From the NCBI GenBank assembly GCA_023249375.1, contig JAHFCT010000032.1:1-34801 (forward strand): a stretch of 34,801 nucleotides of DNA. Reading direction: 5' to 3'. Position 1 is the stretch's first letter, and every line of letters starts with the position of its first letter. A program made the position numbers and the translations under genes. The notes beneath the pieces were generated by a model. That model saw only the letters and a list, made by a program, of their open reading frames with translations, made no database searches and was not told where the DNA came from. Source of the stretch: Gemmatimonadota bacterium. Its GTDB lineage: Bacteria; Gemmatimonadota; Gemmatimonadetes; Gemmatimonadales; Gemmatimonadaceae. Positions 21,270 through 29,986 of the stretch are shown here, piece by piece.

Positions 21270-21473
21270 TCAGTTGAGCGCGTGGCCGATGATGAGCGCA
21301 ATCGAGATGAAGATTGACGCCACGAAGATGGCCACGGCCACGTTCCCCTTGCTCAATTCGGCGGGGAAGTTGACCTCTGGCGTCAGGCGGTCGATGGCGC
21401 GGTAGCTCAGGAACATGAGCACCACGCCGGCGACGGCGTACAGCAGGTTCACGGCGATGATGTCGAATTGCAC
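21270..21473 (-). CDS. Two-TM DUF350-like small membrane protein
   Basis: This 67-residue protein has two hydrophobic segments (about residues 8-24 and 44-62) separated by DRLTPEVNFPAELSKGN. The AELSKGNVAVAIF stretch resembles the DUF350/YjfL family of inner-membrane proteins, which normally carry the unit twice in about 130 residues; this is a half-length version. GGGAG lies just upstream of the GTG at 21473. A longer in-frame reading upstream (to 21677) overlaps the promoter area of the divergent kinase and lacks protein-like features. The function of the family is unknown. It is probably co-transcribed with the lytic transglycosylase. Confidence 0.75.
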   Translation of the reverse strand: MQFDIIAVNLLYAVAGVVLMFLSYRAIDRLTPEVNFPAELSKGNVAVAIFVASIFISIALIIGHALN

Positions 21474-21685
21474 GCGGGCTCCCGGTCGCTGGTGACGGTC
21501 CGCGGTCAAACGTATCACCGCGCGCCTCACGCGGTAACGGTGGGCGGCCGATACTCGAAGCAACGCGGCGCTGCCCATTCCTCTGGCGACGCCGCCGCAA
21601 GGGTGCCAAGTTGCCCACACCGACGCCGGGTGCGCGCGTAGGGTGCCCGTCGTGCGTTCATTTGCCGAAGAGACCACCTCGCGTC
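21474..21685. other. Divergent intergenic region with small inverted repeat
   Basis: This 212-bp region separates the minus-strand DUF350-like gene from the plus-strand kinase gene. The only clear structure is ACCGCG (21517-21522) and CGCGGT (21530-21535), a perfect 6-bp inverted repeat with a 7-bp spacer that could be an operator. No convincing -10/-35 pair and no gene were found. Confidence 0.4.
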
Positions 21686-23710
21686 ATGACCGCGTCCGCG
21701 GCGAAGCCCCTGAATGAGCCACGCAGCACGCGCCTGATCGCCATGGTCGACGGCGCGGCGATTGCGTGGACGGCCGCCTTCGTGATCTGGCTCTTCGTGG
21801 CCGGCCGTTGGCCGGCGTACGCGACGGCCATCGACCTTGCGTTCTTCATTCCGCTGGGGATCGGCGGTTTCCTGCTCATGGTGCGTGCGGGACTCGCGGC
21901 ACGGGCACCGCGCGACCGATGGGCGTGGTACGCGCTGGCCGCGGCCATCGCGACACGCCTCACCGCGGGGAGCATCTGGCGGCTCATCACCGCCGCCGGG
22001 CTGCACCCGCCGTCGTCGACGTGGCTCAGCCTGGTGCGATGCGCGCTCGAGCTGGGCGCGGTGCTGCTCTTTGCCAGCGCGCGCTTCCAGCGGTCCGACC
22101 GCATTCGATACTTGCTGGATGCCGCCACCGTGGCGATTGGCGTCGCGCTGATCGAGTGGTTCCTCGCCGTGCGCGTGATCTCCGAGCCGACGGCCGCGGG
22201 CACGAAGCTGCTCTCCGACTACGCCGTGTTCCTGACGAGCGCGGTGGGCGCAATGCTGAGCGCGCTGCTCTACCTGCGGCGCACGGATTCGTCGACGCGG
22301 CACGCCGCCGTGTGCCTGATGCTGGCGTTCAGCATGCAAACGTATGCCGATGCGCTCCAATGGAACGGCCCGATTTACGAGTCTGGAAGCGCCGTGACCG
22401 CCTGGTGGTGGGCCATTTGGCTTCTCCGCCTGACGGCGGCGCGGGTTGCCCTTGGCGCGCGCAGCGCCGACGAAGCCGATGTGCGGACGTACAACGGCCA
22501 CGCGATGCCGTATGTCTTTCTTGCGGGGGCCAACGTCACGCTCTGGATGGGAATGTCGTACCCGCTCTTTTCGAACGAGTGGCTGGTGCTCGCGACGTCC
22601 GTCCTGACGGCGTCCATCGTGATCCGGCACATCGTGGAGCAGCGGGACCAGGTGGTGATGACGCGCGAGCTCGCGGCGGAAAAGGCGCGGTTTGGCGCCC
22701 TCGTGGAACACTCGTACGACGCGGTGGTGCTCGTCGTGGGCGATGGCGGCGCGCTCTATGTGAGTCCCACGACGCGGCGCCTCGTTGGCGATGACCCGGC
22801 CTTCGGCGCGCCGTGGGGGTTGTTGACGGCGCTGCACCCCGACGATGCGCCCAAACTGAAAAAGGCACTGACGCAGTCTGGGAACGCGAGCCAGCTGATG
22901 ACGTGCCGAGTGCGAAGCGCGGAGGGCGAGTACCACATGTTCGCCATCCGCATAGTGGACTTGCGGCTTGATCCGCGCGTGGGGGCCATCGCGCTGCACG
23001 GCCACGACATCACGCGCGAGATGCAGCTGGCGCGGCGGTTGCACGAAACGGCGGAGGTCGAAGCGCTGGGTGTGTTTGCCGGCGGGCTCGCGCACGACCT
23101 GAATAATGTGCTCGGCGCGATCTCGAATCACGTGGACCTGCTGCTGCTGGATGTGCCCGAGCAGAGCGGGGCGGCGCTGGAACTGCACGCCATCGAGCGC
23201 GCCGTGTCGCGCGGCGTGCGCCTGACGCGCGCCCTGCTTGGACTGAGCCGGCGCAAGGCGACGGCGCTGGAAGTCGTCGATCTGGGAGACTTCCTGGCGG
23301 TGCACGCGCCGGCCACCAGTCAGGTGGACGTGCCCGCTGACATTGTGCGCGTGCGAATGGACCAGACGTCGCTGGCGTACGCGCTGGATGCCGTGCTCGA
23401 CGAGGACGCGCCGTTGGGGCGCCGTTTTTCGCGCTGGCGTCTCTCGGTGACGCGGCGCGATCTGCCGGGGTCGGAGGCGACGGCGGTCGATCTCGCGGCG
23501 GGGGCGTACGCGGTGCTCCACTGCGATACCGGGCGCCCGGACGCGGGCTTTGAGAGGAGAACCAGCGTCGAAGGCGCCGCCATCGACGAGGGACTGGACG
23601 TGCTGCTGGCGCGCGCCGTGCTGCGCGAGATGGGCGGTACGCTCGTGGTGCACGCGGGCATGCCGCCATCGCGCCATCTCACGTTCTTCCTGCCGGCGGA
23701 AGTGGCCTGA
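21686..23710 (+). CDS. Membrane PAS histidine kinase with degenerate ATP-binding domain
   Basis: This 674-residue protein has a multi-pass N-terminal sensor (about eight membrane segments, residues 20-310), a PAS domain (about 325-440) and a HisKA-type dimerisation domain with the phospho-acceptor His470 in GLAHDLNNVLG. A C-terminal domain follows that still resembles HATPase_c in its last part (EMGGTLVV, LTFFLPAE). The ATP boxes are lost: the N-box region from D559 has no Asn, the G1 box reads DTGRP, and the GTGLGL loop is replaced by DEGLDV. It therefore probably cannot bind ATP itself. I chose ATG 21686 because the segment before it has no features. Its stop overlaps the next kinase start (TGATG). 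Confidence 0.87.
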   Translation: MTASAAKPLNEPRSTRLIAMVDGAAIAWTAAFVIWLFVAGRWPAYATAIDLAFFIPLGIGGFLLMVRAGLAARAPRDRWAWYALAAAIATRLTAGSIWRLITAAGLHPPSSTWLSLVRCALELGAVLLFASARFQRSDRIRYLLDAATVAIGVALIEWFLAVRVISEPTAAGTKLLSDYAVFLTSAVGAMLSALLYLRRTDSSTRHAAVCLMLAFSMQTYADALQWNGPIYESGSAVTAWWWAIWLLRLTAARVALGARSADEADVRTYNGHAMPYVFLAGANVTLWMGMSYPLFSNEWLVLATSVLTASIVIRHIVEQRDQVVMTRELAAEKARFGALVEHSYDAVVLVVGDGGALYVSPTTRRLVGDDPAFGAPWGLLTALHPDDAPKLKKALTQSGNASQLMTCRVRSAEGEYHMFAIRIVDLRLDPRVGAIALHGHDITREMQLARRLHETAEVEALGVFAGGLAHDLNNVLGAISNHVDLLLLDVPEQSGAALELHAIERAVSRGVRLTRALLGLSRRKATALEVVDLGDFLAVHAPATSQVDVPADIVRVRMDQTSLAYALDAVLDEDAPLGRRFSRWRLSVTRRDLPGSEATAVDLAAGAYAVLHCDTGRPDAGFERRTSVEGAAIDEGLDVLLARAVLREMGGTLVVHAGMPPSRHLTFFLPAEVA

Positions 23711-26259
23711 TGACCGGCTCCGCCGAGCGAAGCCCGGGAAGCGGCTCTCCATCCGCCACCGCGGACGGCCGCGGCCATGAGCCGCGGCGCGGCTTTGGAC
23801 ACGAACGCGTCGTGGCTGCATTCGTCGTCGTCTGGCTCTTGCTCTTTGGCGCCGCTCGGCTCTGGCCAGTGCTGCTCGGTGCGGCGAATCTGTCGTATTT
23901 CGGGATCGGCATCATTACGACGTGGGCGATGTGGAACTCGGCGGCGCATCCATCTGCCGATCGCGCGACCGCGCGCGCCTGGCGCGTCCTCGCGGTCGCT
24001 GCCGTGTGGCTCATCGTCGGCGGCGTGACGTGGACCTACATCGTCCTGCTTTCCCCAACCGAGCCGACGCCGTGGTGGTCGAAGCTGGCCGATGTCGGAT
24101 ACGCCGTGGTGTCGATCGCGGCATTCCTGTCGTTTCCCCATCATTCGATGGCGATGCTGCGCAAGCGCGAGGCGAAACTCGATGCCGCGCTCCTGGTGCT
24201 CGGGACGTCGGCGCTCGCCTGGTACTTCTCGCTTCGCCCACTGCTCGTCAGCGACATCGAACGATCCTCTTGGCTATCGTGGGCGGACAGCATCTCGTCC
24301 TGGCTCGTTGTGTTTGCCGCCTGCTGGGCCTACCTGCGGGCCAGGGATCTCGTGACGCGCGCTGCCATCGCGCTGCTGATGATCTCGCAGGTGGTGTTCA
24401 ACATCAGCGATCTCGTGCTCGCGATGGCCGGCGACACGTACCAGTCCGGCGATGCGCTGGACGTGGTCTTCTTTGGCGCGTGGCTGTTCCGGTGGGCCGC
24501 CGCACGCTGGGCGTGGCATCGGGCCGGAGCGTCGCGCAACGATGAAGCGTCCGACGATGCGGAGTACCGCAGCGGCATCGCACCGGCCGCGTTCGTGGCG
24601 ATCGCGTTCGCGCTGCTCGTCTACATGGTGTTCGCCGACCGCAGCGCACGGATGGGCGGCAAGACCGGCATCGCGGTGGTGACCTCGGCCATGACATGGC
24701 TGCTGGTGGCCCGCCACGCCTCGCACCTGGTGACGACGCGGCGTCAACTGCGCGCGGTGGAGCGGCAGAAGGAGCGTTTCCGCGCGATCATGGACAGCCT
24801 CACGGACTTTGTCTTTGTTACCGACGGCGGCGGACGCGTGACATGGGCGAGCGCGTCGGTGCAGCAGGCGCTTGGCCCGGTCGATCGCAACCCGTTCGTC
24901 AGCTTGGTGCATCCGGATGATCAGGCGAGCGTGCTGGCGTGGCTGCCGTGCGACGGGCGCGCGCTGTCACCGCAGCCGGTGCACGCGCGGCTTCGGCGCG
25001 TGGACCACGAGTGGCTGCACGTTGAGCTGCGCGGCAACGACCTGCTGCACGATCCGGTGGTGGGCGGTCTTGTCCTCAACGGCCGCGACCGCAGCGAGGA
25101 AGTCTCCCTCGAGGGGCGCGTGCGGCACGCCGAGAAGCTGGCGACGCTGCACGACATGGCGGGGCGCATTGCGCACGCGTTCAACAACGTGCTGGCGGTG
25201 GTGCAGGGGCACGCCGAACTGCTCGCGGCCGACACCGCGCTGGATCCGGCGTGGCACGGCGACGTGAGTGACATGCGGAGCGCCGCCAACCGCGGGGCCG
25301 CCATCACGCGGCAACTGCTGGGATTCAGCGGGCGGCAAGTCATTCACACCGAAGCGCTCGATGTGGCCGCCGTCCTTGGCGACGCGATCCCGAGCTGGCG
25401 TCGCCTGCTGCCCGTGGGCACGACGGTGCGCCTGGAAGGCGCCGCGGGGACGCTGCGCGCCTTCGTCGATCGCGCGCAGATGGAGCAGGTGTTGCTGAAC
25501 CTCGTGGTGAATGCGCGCGACGCCATGCCCGACGGCGGAGAGATCGTGATTGCGATTGCCTCGGGCGAAGCGGAGGACGGGGCGCGCCGCGTGCTCGTCT
25601 CCGTGCGCGACTCGGGCGTGGGCATGGATGCCGGACACCTCGAACGCATCTTCGAACCGTTCTTCACGACCAAGGCACCCGGTGTGGGCACCGGGCTCGG
25701 CCTGGCGATGGTCGACACGATCGTGCGGCGCGCGGGCGGCGAGATAAGCGTGAGCAGCGCCGTTGGTGAAGGCTCGGTGTTCACCGTGTCGCTCCCCGCG
25801 GTTGATGCGCGGCAGTCAGGCCCGCACGACGTGCAGGGTGAGCCGAGTGAAGTGGCACCAGATGCGCCGCAAGCCACCGTGCTCTTGGTGGACGATGAGG
25901 AGGCCGTGCGCAACGTGAGCCGCCGCATTCTCTCCCGGGCGGGCTTCGACGTGCGCGCGTGCAGCGGAGGCGCCGAGGCGTTGGAGGCGGCGGCGACGAT
26001 GGGCCCGGGCATCGACGCGGTGGTGACCGACATGATGATGCCCGGCATGTCGGGGCGCGAACTCATCGACCGGCTAGTCGTCGTCTATCCGCAGATCCCG
26101 ATCATCGTCATCACGGGCTTCACGGCCGACGTGGACACGCGCGTGCCGATGCCCCCGCAGGTGCAGAAGATCATCGAGAAGCCGTTCGCGGCCGCCGACC
26201 TCGTGGGCGCCGTGCGCCGCGCGGTGTCGTGGCGCCGCGCTCAGGGCACGCGCGCGTAG
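23710..26259 (+). CDS. Hybrid histidine kinase with C-terminal receiver
   Basis: This 849-residue protein has an N-terminal multi-pass sensor (about residues 30-330) like that of the preceding kinase and a PAS domain (about 355-450). The dimerisation domain has His489 in GRIAHAFNNVLA, the HATPase is intact (NLVVNARDAMP, DSGVGMD, FEPFFTT, GTGLGL), and the receiver starts at about residue 722 (LLVDDEE) with phospho-acceptor Asp774 in TDMMMPGMSG. The residue after the His is Ala490, where HisKA kinases have an acid. It overlaps the previous gene by 1 bp and converges with the DUF1080 gene with a 19-bp overlap. The two kinases look like tandem paralogues. No output domain is attached. Confidence 0.92.
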   Translation: MTGSAERSPGSGSPSATADGRGHEPRRGFGHERVVAAFVVVWLLLFGAARLWPVLLGAANLSYFGIGIITTWAMWNSAAHPSADRATARAWRVLAVAAVWLIVGGVTWTYIVLLSPTEPTPWWSKLADVGYAVVSIAAFLSFPHHSMAMLRKREAKLDAALLVLGTSALAWYFSLRPLLVSDIERSSWLSWADSISSWLVVFAACWAYLRARDLVTRAAIALLMISQVVFNISDLVLAMAGDTYQSGDALDVVFFGAWLFRWAAARWAWHRAGASRNDEASDDAEYRSGIAPAAFVAIAFALLVYMVFADRSARMGGKTGIAVVTSAMTWLLVARHASHLVTTRRQLRAVERQKERFRAIMDSLTDFVFVTDGGGRVTWASASVQQALGPVDRNPFVSLVHPDDQASVLAWLPCDGRALSPQPVHARLRRVDHEWLHVELRGNDLLHDPVVGGLVLNGRDRSEEVSLEGRVRHAEKLATLHDMAGRIAHAFNNVLAVVQGHAELLAADTALDPAWHGDVSDMRSAANRGAAITRQLLGFSGRQVIHTEALDVAAVLGDAIPSWRRLLPVGTTVRLEGAAGTLRAFVDRAQMEQVLLNLVVNARDAMPDGGEIVIAIASGEAEDGARRVLVSVRDSGVGMDAGHLERIFEPFFTTKAPGVGTGLGLAMVDTIVRRAGGEISVSSAVGEGSVFTVSLPAVDARQSGPHDVQGEPSEVAPDAPQATVLLVDDEEAVRNVSRRILSRAGFDVRACSGGAEALEAAATMGPGIDAVVTDMMMPGMSGRELIDRLVVVYPQIPIIVITGFTADVDTRVPMPPQVQKIIEKPFAAADLVGAVRRAVSWRRAQGTRA

Positions 26260-27305
26260 CTGCGCTCCTGCTCGGCGATGATGACGTCGACGCGCATCGG
26301 CGCGCCGGCGGCGCCTGCCGTGAATCGCACGCGCCCGGCCGTGTAGCGGAACGTGAACGCGCCGTCCGCCGTCGTCACCAGCGGCATCGTATCGGGACGA
26401 TCGAAGATCGCGAGTCCAAGACCGTCGCGCAGCGGCACGATACGGCAGGTGTCACCGTCGGAGGCGCGGTACACGCCGACGTATGCCCGCAGCTGCGCCG
26501 CCGTCAGCGCGCGCGCGTTCTTCGCCTCACCGGCGCGTGCGGTCGCCGAGGGCTCATCAGGCAGCGGGCGCATCCAGATATTCCGGAAGCGCACGGGGTT
26601 GCTGTGGTCCTGCAAGACAAGCGGGAGCGCGGCGGCATGCCGCTCGTACGGCGCGTGCCGCAGCCACGCGGTTCCGCCCCACAGGGTGACGCGCTCCTGC
26701 ACAAGCACCCCGTTGTGAAAGACGGTGATGCGCGCCGGGCGGGTCAGCGTGCCCGACGTGTTCCATCGCGGGCCGCGAAAGATGATTTCATACGTCTGCC
26801 ACTGGCCCGGCGGCCGCGATGCGTTGGCGAGCGGCGGATACTGGCCGTACACCGCCGCGGCCTGTCCGTCGGCGTACGTGGTGTTCTCGTACGAGTCGAG
26901 GATCTGCACCTCGTACAGGCCCATGATGATCACACCGCTGTTGCCGCGCCCCTGGCCGCGTCCGGCGGGCGGCGTTGGCGCAGCCCACTCGATGTGCAGC
27001 TGCATGTCGCCGAGCGGCTCAGCGGTCTGGATGGCGCCCGTGCCCGGCGCGGCTTCCATGTATCCGTCACGCATCACCCAGCGGGCGGGCTCCGTGCCCT
27101 TGTTGCCGCGCCACGCGTTCAGCGAGCTGCCATCGAACAGCACCACCGCATCACTGGGGGGCGCGCCGAGCGCCGCGCCCGGCGTGACGATGGGCGGATG
27201 CGGGCGATCGGGATCGTGCTGGCGCCAGTTGGTGGACTGAGCGAGCAAGGCGGGCGCGAGGAACGCCGTGAGCAGGGCGGCACATGTGCCGGTTGATACG
27301 CGCAT
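26241..27305 (-). CDS. Secreted DUF1080 protein with C-terminal lipocalin-like domain
   Basis: This 354-residue protein has a signal peptide (residues 1-22, ending LLAQ) and a DUF1080/3-keto-disaccharide hydrolase-type concanavalin fold (about 45-255). Recognisable parts are VVLFDGSSLNAWRG, GMEWE-like LHIEWAAP, NSGVIIMGLYEVQILDSY, YGQYPPLANASRPPGQWQTYEI and FRNIWMRPL. Characterised relatives bind or cleave sugars. After residue 265 an extra domain of about 85 residues (LRAYVGVYRASDG and following beta strands) resembles the DUF3471-type barrel found after serine-hydrolase domains. The pairing is less usual than a lone DUF1080. Its end overlaps the hybrid kinase by 19 bp tail to tail. Confidence 0.86.
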   Translation of the reverse strand: MRVSTGTCAALLTAFLAPALLAQSTNWRQHDPDRPHPPIVTPGAALGAPPSDAVVLFDGSSLNAWRGNKGTEPARWVMRDGYMEAAPGTGAIQTAEPLGDMQLHIEWAAPTPPAGRGQGRGNSGVIIMGLYEVQILDSYENTTYADGQAAAVYGQYPPLANASRPPGQWQTYEIIFRGPRWNTSGTLTRPARITVFHNGVLVQERVTLWGGTAWLRHAPYERHAAALPLVLQDHSNPVRFRNIWMRPLPDEPSATARAGEAKNARALTAAQLRAYVGVYRASDGDTCRIVPLRDGLGLAIFDRPDTMPLVTTADGAFTFRYTAGRVRFTAGAAGAPMRVDVIIAEQERSYARVP

Positions 27306-27345: not shown

Positions 27346-29790
27346 TTACGCGGTCTGGCGGAGGGGGTCGTCGTCTGTCGTTCGCGAGGCGGCCGGCAGT
27401 GCCGGCGAATCACCGACGAGCGTCAGCGTGGCACTCTCCCCTTCGCGTGGCGCCGCGTCGATCCACCGCGCACAGAGACCAAGGAGGCCTGGCAGGTCGA
27501 TGGGCTTGCGCGCGTACTCGTCGCATCCGGCGTCGAGACAGCGCTGGCGGTCCTCGGACAATGCGTGCGCGGTGAGCGCGATGATCGGCAGCGTCGAGCC
27601 GCGCGCGCGCAGCGTTCGCGCGAGCGTGTAGCCATCCATCACGGGCATCTGCATGTCGGTGATGAGGAGATCATACGGCGTGCCATCACCCTCGCTCGCA
27701 TCCAGCAGCGCCAGCGCCTGTGCGCCGTCCGACGCGACGCGAACGCTCGCGCCAGCCTTGGCGAGGAAGACCTCGAGCAGCCGCTGATTCACCGGATTGT
27801 CTTCGGCCACGAGCACGCGGCCAGCCAATCGCTGCGGTGCCTCAGCGCCGCCCGCCAGCGAGGCGCGCGCGCTCGCCGCGCGCAGCGATGTGACGGCCGC
27901 GGCATCGGCCTGGGGGACGATTTCCACGTCAATGCGGAAGGTGCATCCTTGGCCGAGGCCGGAGCGATGCAAGCGAACGTCGCCCCCCATCAGCTCCGCC
28001 AGCCGGCGCGAGATGATGAGGCCGAGGCCGGTGCCGCCGTGCAGGCGCGTGACGGACGCGTCGCCTTGCGCGAACGCCGCGAAAAGCGACGACGACTGCT
28101 CCGGCGTCAATCCGGGACCCGAATCATCGACATCGATGCGCAGTGTCTGCACCATCTCGTCGGGGTTGACGACGGACGCTCGAATGGAGACGTGTCCCGC
28201 CGTCGTGAACTTGATGGCATTGCCCGCGAGGTTCAGGATGATCTGGCGCAGCCGCGTCGGGTCCGCGAGTGCGCGATCGGGGATGGGCGTGTCGAGTCCG
28301 ATGGAAAAGGCGAGGCCCTTGGCCGCGGCGCGCGGTGCGAGGAGGCTCTCGCATTCGATGAAGAGCCTGGGCAAATCGATGGCGACCGTCTCCACGGTCA
28401 TGCGGCCGGCCTCGATCTTCGAGAGATCGAGGATGTCATTGATGATCGCGAGCAGGTGCTGGCCGGCCGTACGAATCGTATCGATCGTCTGCAGCCGCGC
28501 GACCGGCGCCGAGCGGGCGTCGCCGTCTTCGCGCAACAATTCGGCGTAGCCGAGAATCGCGGTGAGCGGTGTGCGAATCTCGTGGCTCATATTGGCCACG
28601 AACGCACTCTTGGCCTGGCTGGCGGCGACGGCGGCTTCGCGCAGTTGCCGGGCCTCGCTCACGTCGAGCAGCACGCCGCTGATCACCGAGGGCCGGCTTT
28701 CGTCCTGATCAATCGAGATGACCAGTTGCACCCAGGTATCGCGGCCGCCGGCGCTCCGCAGGCGGAATTCGATGCGGTCGCGTGCTCCCGGTGTGCGTGC
28801 TTCGCCCATGAAGCGGGCGAGCGGCTCCTGATCAGCCTCGTGCAGGATGCCGCGAAGGAAGCGCGGCGTCGCCCAGTCATCCATGCCGTAGCCAAGACTG
28901 AGGCCGTGCGGCGAGACGGACGTGATTCGTCCGAGCGACCGGTCGTACTCGAGCGCAAGGACACCGGCTCCTTCGATCACGGAACGGAACCGGCGCTCCT
29001 GCCGCGCAACGCTCGTTTCCGCGTCCAGCACCTGCTGCTGCTGGCGCATGACCTGCCGGTGCGCCGCGAGCTGGCGGCGGCGCACACGATAGATCCCGAG
29101 ACTGAGCGCGAGCACGAGGACCGCGGCGGGGATGACGCCGAGGATCAGGGCGCGGCGGCGCGCTGCGATGGCGGCAACGTAGTCGGCCGCGTCCACGTCG
29201 ATGCCGAGGATGCCGATCTGCTGATGCTGCGCGTCGAGAAGCGGAGCGTATCCGCTGATAAACGTTCCCCACTCGTCGCTGGATGGGGAGCGCGATGCGA
29301 GCGCATGGCCCGGGTGTCCCGGGGTGCCGAGCGCTACCAGCATTTCCGAATCGGCATCGGCGTAGGCTTGGCCGACCAGCGCCCGGTCCTCCTTGCCATC
29401 GCCATCGTGGTCGCCGGGCTCTGCGGTGTCGAGGATGATCCGCAGGGTGTCATCCTGGCGCATGATGGTGTAGACGTACTTGACGCCGACAGCCGCCTTG
29501 TGGGCGCGACGCAGCGGCGCAATGGCGCGCTGGTAATCCGGGGTATCCGTCAGGCCCGCGGCGCGGATGCGCTCGTGCTGGACAGGGTCAACGAGCGTCG
29601 CCATCGTGGCCGCCAGACGCGGGAGGTCGCTGCGCACCTGTTCAAGGGCGGTGCGTTGCGCCTCCATCCACAGACCGTACACGGCAACGAAGAGCACGAC
29701 GGTGAAGGCCACGCCCGCGAACAGCGTCTCGCCTAGGGCGCGGCGGTGATCATCCATGGGAGGGTGCGGCTGGCCTTTGGATTCGTGCAT
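27346..29790 (-). CDS. Hybrid histidine kinase with Cache-like sensor and calcium-loop motif
   Basis: This protein has 814 residues from ATG 29790 (ATG 29757 is an alternative). Two membrane segments (about 24-43 and 214-235) enclose a periplasmic sensor of about 170 residues. The sensor contains [10 protein letters not shown] and an EF-hand-like acidic loop DHDGDGKED (127-135). A PAS-type domain (about 265-380), HisKA with His403 in [10 protein letters not shown], HATPase with [18 protein letters not shown] and GTGLGL, and a receiver (about 670-790) with Asp712 in TDMQMP follow. All phosphotransfer residues are present. No output domain or cognate regulator is adjacent. Neighbours encode secreted proteins, which suggests but does not show a link to extracellular substrates. 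Confidence 0.92.
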
Positions 29791-29986
29791 GCCGGGCAAA
29801 CGGAAGACGTGGTGAGGGTAGCTCTGTAGCGGAGTATCGGCGCCGAATCGCCGTACATTAGAGAGGCGCGCGCCGCCGACGCGGGAGCACGGCTGCCCGA
29901 CGGCGGGTTGGGCGGCAACGTTGTCGTGCCGTGCAGCGTTTCGTACTCGTATGCACTTTCGCGGCAACCTGACTGAGGATCATCGC
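29791..29986. other. Divergent intergenic region between kinase and Asp-box gene
   Basis: This 196-bp region must hold the promoters of both the minus-strand hybrid kinase and the plus-strand Asp-box protein. GAGG at 29975-29978 is a good Shine-Dalgarno sequence 8 nt before the ATG at 29987. TTGTCG (29921-29926) is a weak -35 candidate with TACTCG 17 bp later. The palindrome CGGCGCCG at 29838-29845 is seen. No further gene is visible. Confidence 0.4.

Follow-up and report, generated by a model that had tools for sequence, protein, structure and literature searches.

Histidine kinases are nearly always homodimers in which each chain contains both catalytic parts. In the CheA3/CheA4 system of Rhodobacter sphaeroides, the acceptor histidine and the ATPase domain reside on separate proteins, neither of which autophosphorylates alone, and the phosphatase sits on the acceptor protein (PMC3591291). 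Split kinases of this kind have been modelled as switch-like devices, the biochemically characterised example in that work being this chemotaxis CheA pair, and 711 HisKA proteins (1.7%) that carry a phosphatase motif without an HATPase domain have been put forward as further candidates (Amin et al. 2013, PMC3591291).

The ATPase domain of RetS is degenerate and devoid of G boxes, and RetS does not autophosphorylate; it binds and inhibits GacS, dephosphorylates the GacS receiver, controls GacS negatively by three routes, and is still a regulator that keeps its H box and phosphatase threonine despite its dead ATPase domain (PMC5992135). In ChpT, a dimer built on a DHp domain, the ATPase-like domain is unable to bind ATP, and the protein passes on phosphate that it receives from CckA (PMC3433190). 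The ChrS pseudokinase of Corynebacterium glutamicum, a paralogue without a working ATPase domain, raises output through its intact paralogue HrrS; native ChrS and HrrS heterodimerise, whereas no heterodimers were detected for the truncated form (PMC9491836).

The window analysed here (the whole stretch of 34,801 nucleotides) encodes two adjacent histidine kinases, HK1 and HK2, which constitute no new category, since split and pseudokinase-paired histidine kinases are already known. Like CheA3/CheA4, the pair would divide a candidate acceptor (HK1) and an ATPase subunit (HK2) between two proteins; CheA3 and CheA4, however, are of the CheA type with whole domains deleted, whereas HK1 and HK2 are full-length HisKA-type membrane sensors with point and motif losses, and HK2 carries a receiver on the ATPase subunit, unlike CheA3/CheA4. 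The likeness to RetS/GacS of Pseudomonas aeruginosa lies in the HisKA family and in the combination of a full-length sensor bearing a degenerate ATPase domain with an intact hybrid partner, but GacS autophosphorylates by itself, with RetS lowering its output, whereas HK2 lacks the acid after the histidine. We know of no loss of this acid in GacS, and the RetS and GacS genes are unlinked, not tandem. ChpT/CckA of Caulobacter also pairs a protein of DHp and ATPase-like domains with a CckA-like hybrid, CckA being an H-D-F-N-N kinase, but ChpT is a soluble phosphotransferase without a sensor, whereas HK1 is a membrane sensor with no match to the ChpT Pfam family. The ChrS/HrrS case differs in that the pseudokinase arose in laboratory evolution and its histidine was dispensable. 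The literature searched yielded no description of a pair of full-length membrane sensor kinases that stem from one duplication and whose reciprocal motif losses have become fixed jointly within a bacterial family.

Two tandem kinases with complementary defects

The coordinates, reading frames and one-base overlap given in an earlier note on this DNA are correct (Table 1). HK1 consists of a multi-pass membrane sensor, a PAS-like domain, a HisKA (DHp) domain and a degenerate ATPase-like domain, without a receiver; HK2 has a multi-pass membrane sensor, a PAS-like domain, HisKA, an intact ATPase domain and a receiver. Residues and Pfam matches agree with the note's description of HK1 as keeping His470-Asp471 and lacking the N-box asparagine, the G1 box and the GTGLGL loop, and of HK2 as possessing all ATP boxes and a receiver with Ala490 after His489. 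The sensor and PAS domain that it assigned to both proteins were recovered in unequal measure: the multi-pass sensor is clear (about five to six strong hydrophobic N-terminal segments in each protein by a simple hydropathy scan), and PAS is present but weak, below the Pfam cut-off in both window copies and matched in seven of the ten HK1 orthologues.

Table 1. Positions and supporting evidence of the features of the HK1-HK2 locus in the window
Feature	Position	Strand	Evidence or remark
HK1 gene, 674 aa	21686..23710	+	start ATG 21686, stop TGA 23710; translation, Pfam, ten orthologues
HK1 DHp helices, residues 448-530	23027..23275	+	alignment; helical hairpin in model
HK1 His470-Asp471, phospho-acceptor and adjacent acid	23093..23098	+	invariant in 10/10 orthologues
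HK1 ATPase-like domain, residues 545-670	23318..23695	+	without N-box Asn, G1, G2; least conserved, 27.7%
TGATG stop/start overlap, HK1-HK2	23708..23712	+	one shared base
HK2 gene, 849 aa	23710..26259	+	start ATG 23710, stop TAG 26259; translation, Pfam, ten orthologues
HK2 DHp helices, residues 467-550	25108..25359	+	alignment
HK2 Arg486 (His minus 3)	25165..25167	+	invariant in 10/10 HK2, glycine in HK1 and in single-gene relatives
HK2 His489-Ala490	25174..25179	+	His kept in 10/10 orthologues; next residue Ala (9) or Thr (1) in place of the acid
HK2 ATPase domain (HATPase_c)	25468..25800	+	N, G1, F, G2 boxes kept in 10/10
HK2 receiver	25879..26214	+	D728, D729, D774, T802, K824 invariant
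HK2 Asp774, receiver phospho-acceptor	26029..26031	+	alignment

Translation of HK1 gives an H box of H470-D471-L-N473-N474. Pfam finds a weak HisKA and a weak PAS domain in the window copy and nothing else, with no HATPase match even at E = 1. Alignment of the two proteins places DAVLDEDA of HK1 against NLVVNARDAM of HK2 at the N box, DTGRPD against DSGVGM at the G1 box and DEGLDVLLA against GTGLGLAMV at the G2 site. An AlphaFold2 model of HK1 residues 425-674, a weak one built on five alignment rows (mean pLDDT 69), consists of a helical hairpin and an alpha/beta sandwich whose loop at the ATP-lid region is of low confidence, and its Foldseek matches include CckA, ZraS and RetS, among others. 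HK1 possesses the features of a bifunctional split-kinase acceptor (HisKA bearing H-E/D-x-x-N/T, HATPase domain lacking) and equally those of a regulator of the RetS/GacS type (degenerate ATPase domain, H box kept). We infer that HK1 is a natural phospho-acceptor that does not bind ATP.

The H box of HK2 reads H489-A490-F-N492-N493 in translation, and Pfam matches the window copy to HATPase_c (5e-25) and Response_reg (5e-21). By sequence, HK2 supplies the ATPase domain that a split kinase has on its second protein, HATPase_c being found in 10/10 copies. Comparisons with NCBIfam and the PDB show its catalytic half to be CckA-like, and both proteins fall below the curated cut-off of the NCBIfam CckA equivalog (1000 bits), HK2 at 271.6 bits and HK1 at 63.3 bits. 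Pfam HPTransfase, the family of the ChpT C-terminal domain, is matched weakly by two HK2 members and by no HK1 member at E <= 0.1.

Occurrence and joint conservation of the pair

HK1 searches, first among relatives and next across the family, yielded ten genomes with the pair, all belonging to one family-level group. Among 288 genomes of the order, profile searches detect HK1 at 786-973 bits in exactly these ten (the next score being 386) and HK2 at 1026-1298 bits in the same set (the next being 540), so that neither gene was found without the other; relatives with only one of the two genes, which would have spoken against the earlier note's proposal, were thus not encountered in the order. 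A sample of 395 genomes of the phylum added no further HK1, and when HK1 by itself was used to scan species genomes, three distant CckA-like kinases were all that was reached. The pair is patchy, occurring in three of the 11 genomes of the genus, yet it is never half present; the two genes are thus gained and lost as one unit. Eight of the pairs are contiguous, and contig ends interrupt the other two, in one of which (G006) the tail of HK1 lies just upstream of HK2 on a second contig; every contiguous pair of relatives has an overlapping stop and start (TGATG, ATGA or GTGA). An assembly or pseudogene artefact is ruled out, as the pair is intact on the sole contig of genome G099 and the frames, that of HK1 included, stay open in every copy.

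In each of the ten orthologous pairs the losses are retained jointly, which answers a check that the earlier note had proposed, at pairwise identities across the ten genomes of 29-56% for HK1 and 37-66% for HK2. The H, D, N and N residues of the H box are kept in 10/10 HK1 copies, all of which match HisKA and none an HATPase family (E <= 0.1), and the N, G1 and G2 boxes are missing from all complete copies. In HK2 the histidine is invariant and followed by alanine (nine copies) or threonine (one), with all ATPase and receiver residues intact in 10/10. Co-functioning of HK1 and HK2 is well supported by these comparisons, and the two probably work only as a pair.

Origin and constraint

The profiles of HK1 and HK2 align over 665 columns (E 3.9e-86) that stretch from the membrane sensor to the ATPase region, which indicates that the end of HK1 is a homologous ATPase domain devoid of its motifs. 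In a tree of 37 kinases that left out the sensor region, HK1 (100/100) and HK2 (100/99) each form a clade, the two are joined as sisters at 98/89, and all single-gene relatives, which have AHDFNN and an ATPase domain, fall outside them; the stem branch of HK1 is long. Distances within HK1 and within HK2 are correlated (r = 0.93), as expected of co-inherited genes. By alignment and phylogeny, HK1 and HK2 are full-length paralogues from one old duplication, in which an ancestral complete hybrid kinase gave rise to one copy that lost the receiver and ATP site and another that lost the acid.

Mean pairwise identities in HK1 are 35.0% for the sensor, 37.3% for PAS, 53.6% for DHp (its best-kept part) and 27.7% for the ATPase-like domain; in HK2 they are 36.3%, 40.6% and 62.6% for the corresponding regions, 55.6% for the ATPase domain and 53.3% for the receiver. 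Helix 1 of HK1 (residues 462-486) reaches 72% identity, with H470, D471, N473 and N474 invariant. Constraint is relaxed on the ATPase domain of HK1 and held on the HK1 DHp domain and on the ATPase domain of HK2.

Loss of the acid after the histidine in HK2

The CckA-like H box H-D-F-N-N, which the compared single-gene relatives carry, is absent from HK2, where it is H-[AT]-[FY]-N-N. DNA encoding AHD[FY]NN occurs 420 times in 60 relatives, spread over 59 genomes, whereas DNA encoding AH[AT][FY]NN occurs there four times, once in each of the set's four pair genomes and always in HK2. That HK2 lost the acid by chance is ruled out by the conservation of the loss in 10/10 copies together with the motif count of 420 versus 4. 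Across 390 genomes of the phylum there are 12 occurrences of AH[AT][FY]NN: eight in HK2, three in proteins that are not kinases, and one in an unrelated solo hybrid kinase from another order (L142, G410:C323), which has LAGGVAHAFNNLL (HAFNN) with an intact ATPase domain and a receiver. This last protein suggests that alanine after the histidine may be tolerated; it lies near a contig end and has no known partner. Arg486, one helical turn before position 490, is a second clade-specific change of the HK2 H box and may belong to the loss of the acid.

The earlier note's premise that the acid after the histidine aids autophosphorylation in HisKA kinases is borne out by the kinases tested: replacement of this acid by alanine in CrdS, HK853, HK4262 and HK1190 abolished autophosphorylation and spared phosphatase activity, for which asparagine or threonine at +4 is needed in turn, this residue being dispensable for kinase activity, and the phenotype of an NtrB mutant is cited as agreeing with the results for the acid (Willett and Kirby 2012, PMC3510030). 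These assays were performed in vitro on HisKA kinases of subfamilies other than the CckA-like, and no test of the role of the acid in CckA-like H-D-F-N-N kinases was found in the literature searched. By analogy, HK2 would be nature's counterpart of the kinase-minus, phosphatase-plus mutant, and its ATP site is good.

A possible split kinase and its alternatives

The explanation that we rank first, in which we place about even confidence, is that HK1 and HK2 are the subunits of a single split hybrid histidine kinase that arose by duplication followed by reciprocal loss. The two proteins would form a membrane-bound hetero-oligomer, to which HK2 would contribute the ATP-binding catalytic domain and the receiver, and HK1 the phospho-accepting helix with its acid; by the most likely route the ATPase domain of HK2 would phosphorylate His470 of HK1, assisted by the acid Asp471; the phosphoryl group would pass from His470 to Asp774 of HK2 and from there to an unlinked downstream partner; and the HK2 helix (His489-Ala490-x-x-Asn493) would remove the phosphate again. 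Consistent with such a division of labour are the fixation of the motif losses together in ten pairs, the strict co-occurrence, the common origin and the gene overlap, and it is the simplest arrangement that uses both conserved halves. It is ranked first because none of the RetS, ChpT and ChrS models predicts loss of the acid in every intact partner. The earlier note's proposal that a heterodimer would use the intact parts of each subunit is partly supported: it fits the complementary losses but, in its simplest version, makes the invariant His489 superfluous unless that residue is given a second job; the retention of both His489 and Asn493 would be explained if the HK2 helix were a phosphatase. 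Further points weigh against the split kinase: RetS keeps its H box and phosphatase threonine yet regulates, so that the H-D retained by HK1 is no proof that it receives phosphate derived from ATP; the HAFNN hybrid kinase of another order has no known partner; the role of the acid was assayed in other HisKA subfamilies; and all ten pairs stem from a single family-level group. We propose more tentatively an obligate two-gene HisKA kinase with two full-length membrane sensors and reciprocal catalytic defects, in which HK2 would phosphorylate only its neighbour's histidine, its own helix would be a dedicated phosphatase, and the sensors would be joined as an AND gate or as a balance of kinase and phosphatase.

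Retention of His489 in every HK2 would also be expected if HK2 were self-sufficient, though perhaps slow, and autophosphorylated this residue, with HK1 as a pseudokinase regulator that heterodimerises with HK2 and dephosphorylates its receiver, after the pattern of RetS-GacS or of DivL, which tunes CckA. RetS, which acts on GacS with a degenerate ATPase domain, provides the precedent (PMC5992135); RetS structures are among the Foldseek matches of the HK1 model, and HK1 retains the asparagine needed for phosphatase activity. We nevertheless regard this arrangement as somewhat unlikely, because the acid is lost in 10/10 HK2 copies, a change that killed kinase activity in all HisKA proteins tested (PMC3510030), and because a model of the RetS type does not foresee loss of the acid in the active partner.

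The CckA-like catalytic half of HK2 and the fact that neither an Hpt domain nor a response regulator was seen beside the pair would accord with a membrane-bound phosphotransferase role for HK1 of the ChpT/Spo0B kind, in which phosphate would travel from H489 to D774 of HK2, then to His470 of HK1 and on to an unlinked response regulator, much as in the relay from the hybrid kinase CckA to ChpT (PMC3433190). This relay is distinctly improbable: it requires H489-A490 to be a good autophosphorylation site, and the HK1 members lack any Pfam HPTransfase match at the threshold given above. ChpT and Spo0B, moreover, are soluble and not known to have a sensor, unlike HK1 with its full membrane sensor and PAS domain. 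That HK1 is a decaying duplicate without a phosphotransfer role, kept as a sensor or membrane partner only, would suit the drift of its ATPase-like domain and its long stem branch but is highly implausible given frames that are open throughout, a helix 1 that is the most conserved part and invariant at its four H-box residues, and the presence of HK1 wherever HK2 occurs.

If the split-kinase explanation is true, the pair represents a split enzyme of the sensor-kinase type with ten natural replicates, in which the acid for autophosphorylation has been separated from the ATP site. It would then become testable how duplicated kinases turn into a two-input unit, whether an ATPase domain can be restricted to action in trans, and whether helices of the H-A-x-x-N kind serve as phosphatases in nature.

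Gene neighbourhood

Among the neighbour genes checked in the pair genomes, no linked response regulator or Hpt domain is conserved; the genes around the pairs encode a 3-keto-disaccharide hydrolase, a Na/H exchanger and peptidases. The 3-keto-disaccharide hydrolase domain protein (26241-27305, minus strand) is encoded convergently to HK2 both in the window and in a congener (G007), and judging by the start of an ORF its gene is apparently also beside the G006 pair; it was not seen beside the pair in the other genera checked. Just downstream, on the minus strand at 27346-29967, lies another hybrid histidine kinase (HisKA-HATPase-receiver, SHEIRTP type), whose counterpart in G006 may be a partial ORF that matches it in location and strand (L039:3897-5624). 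Divergent from HK1 is the gene of a DUF350 membrane protein (21270-21677, minus strand), and an ORF upstream of HK1 in G006 has the same start sequence as this gene.
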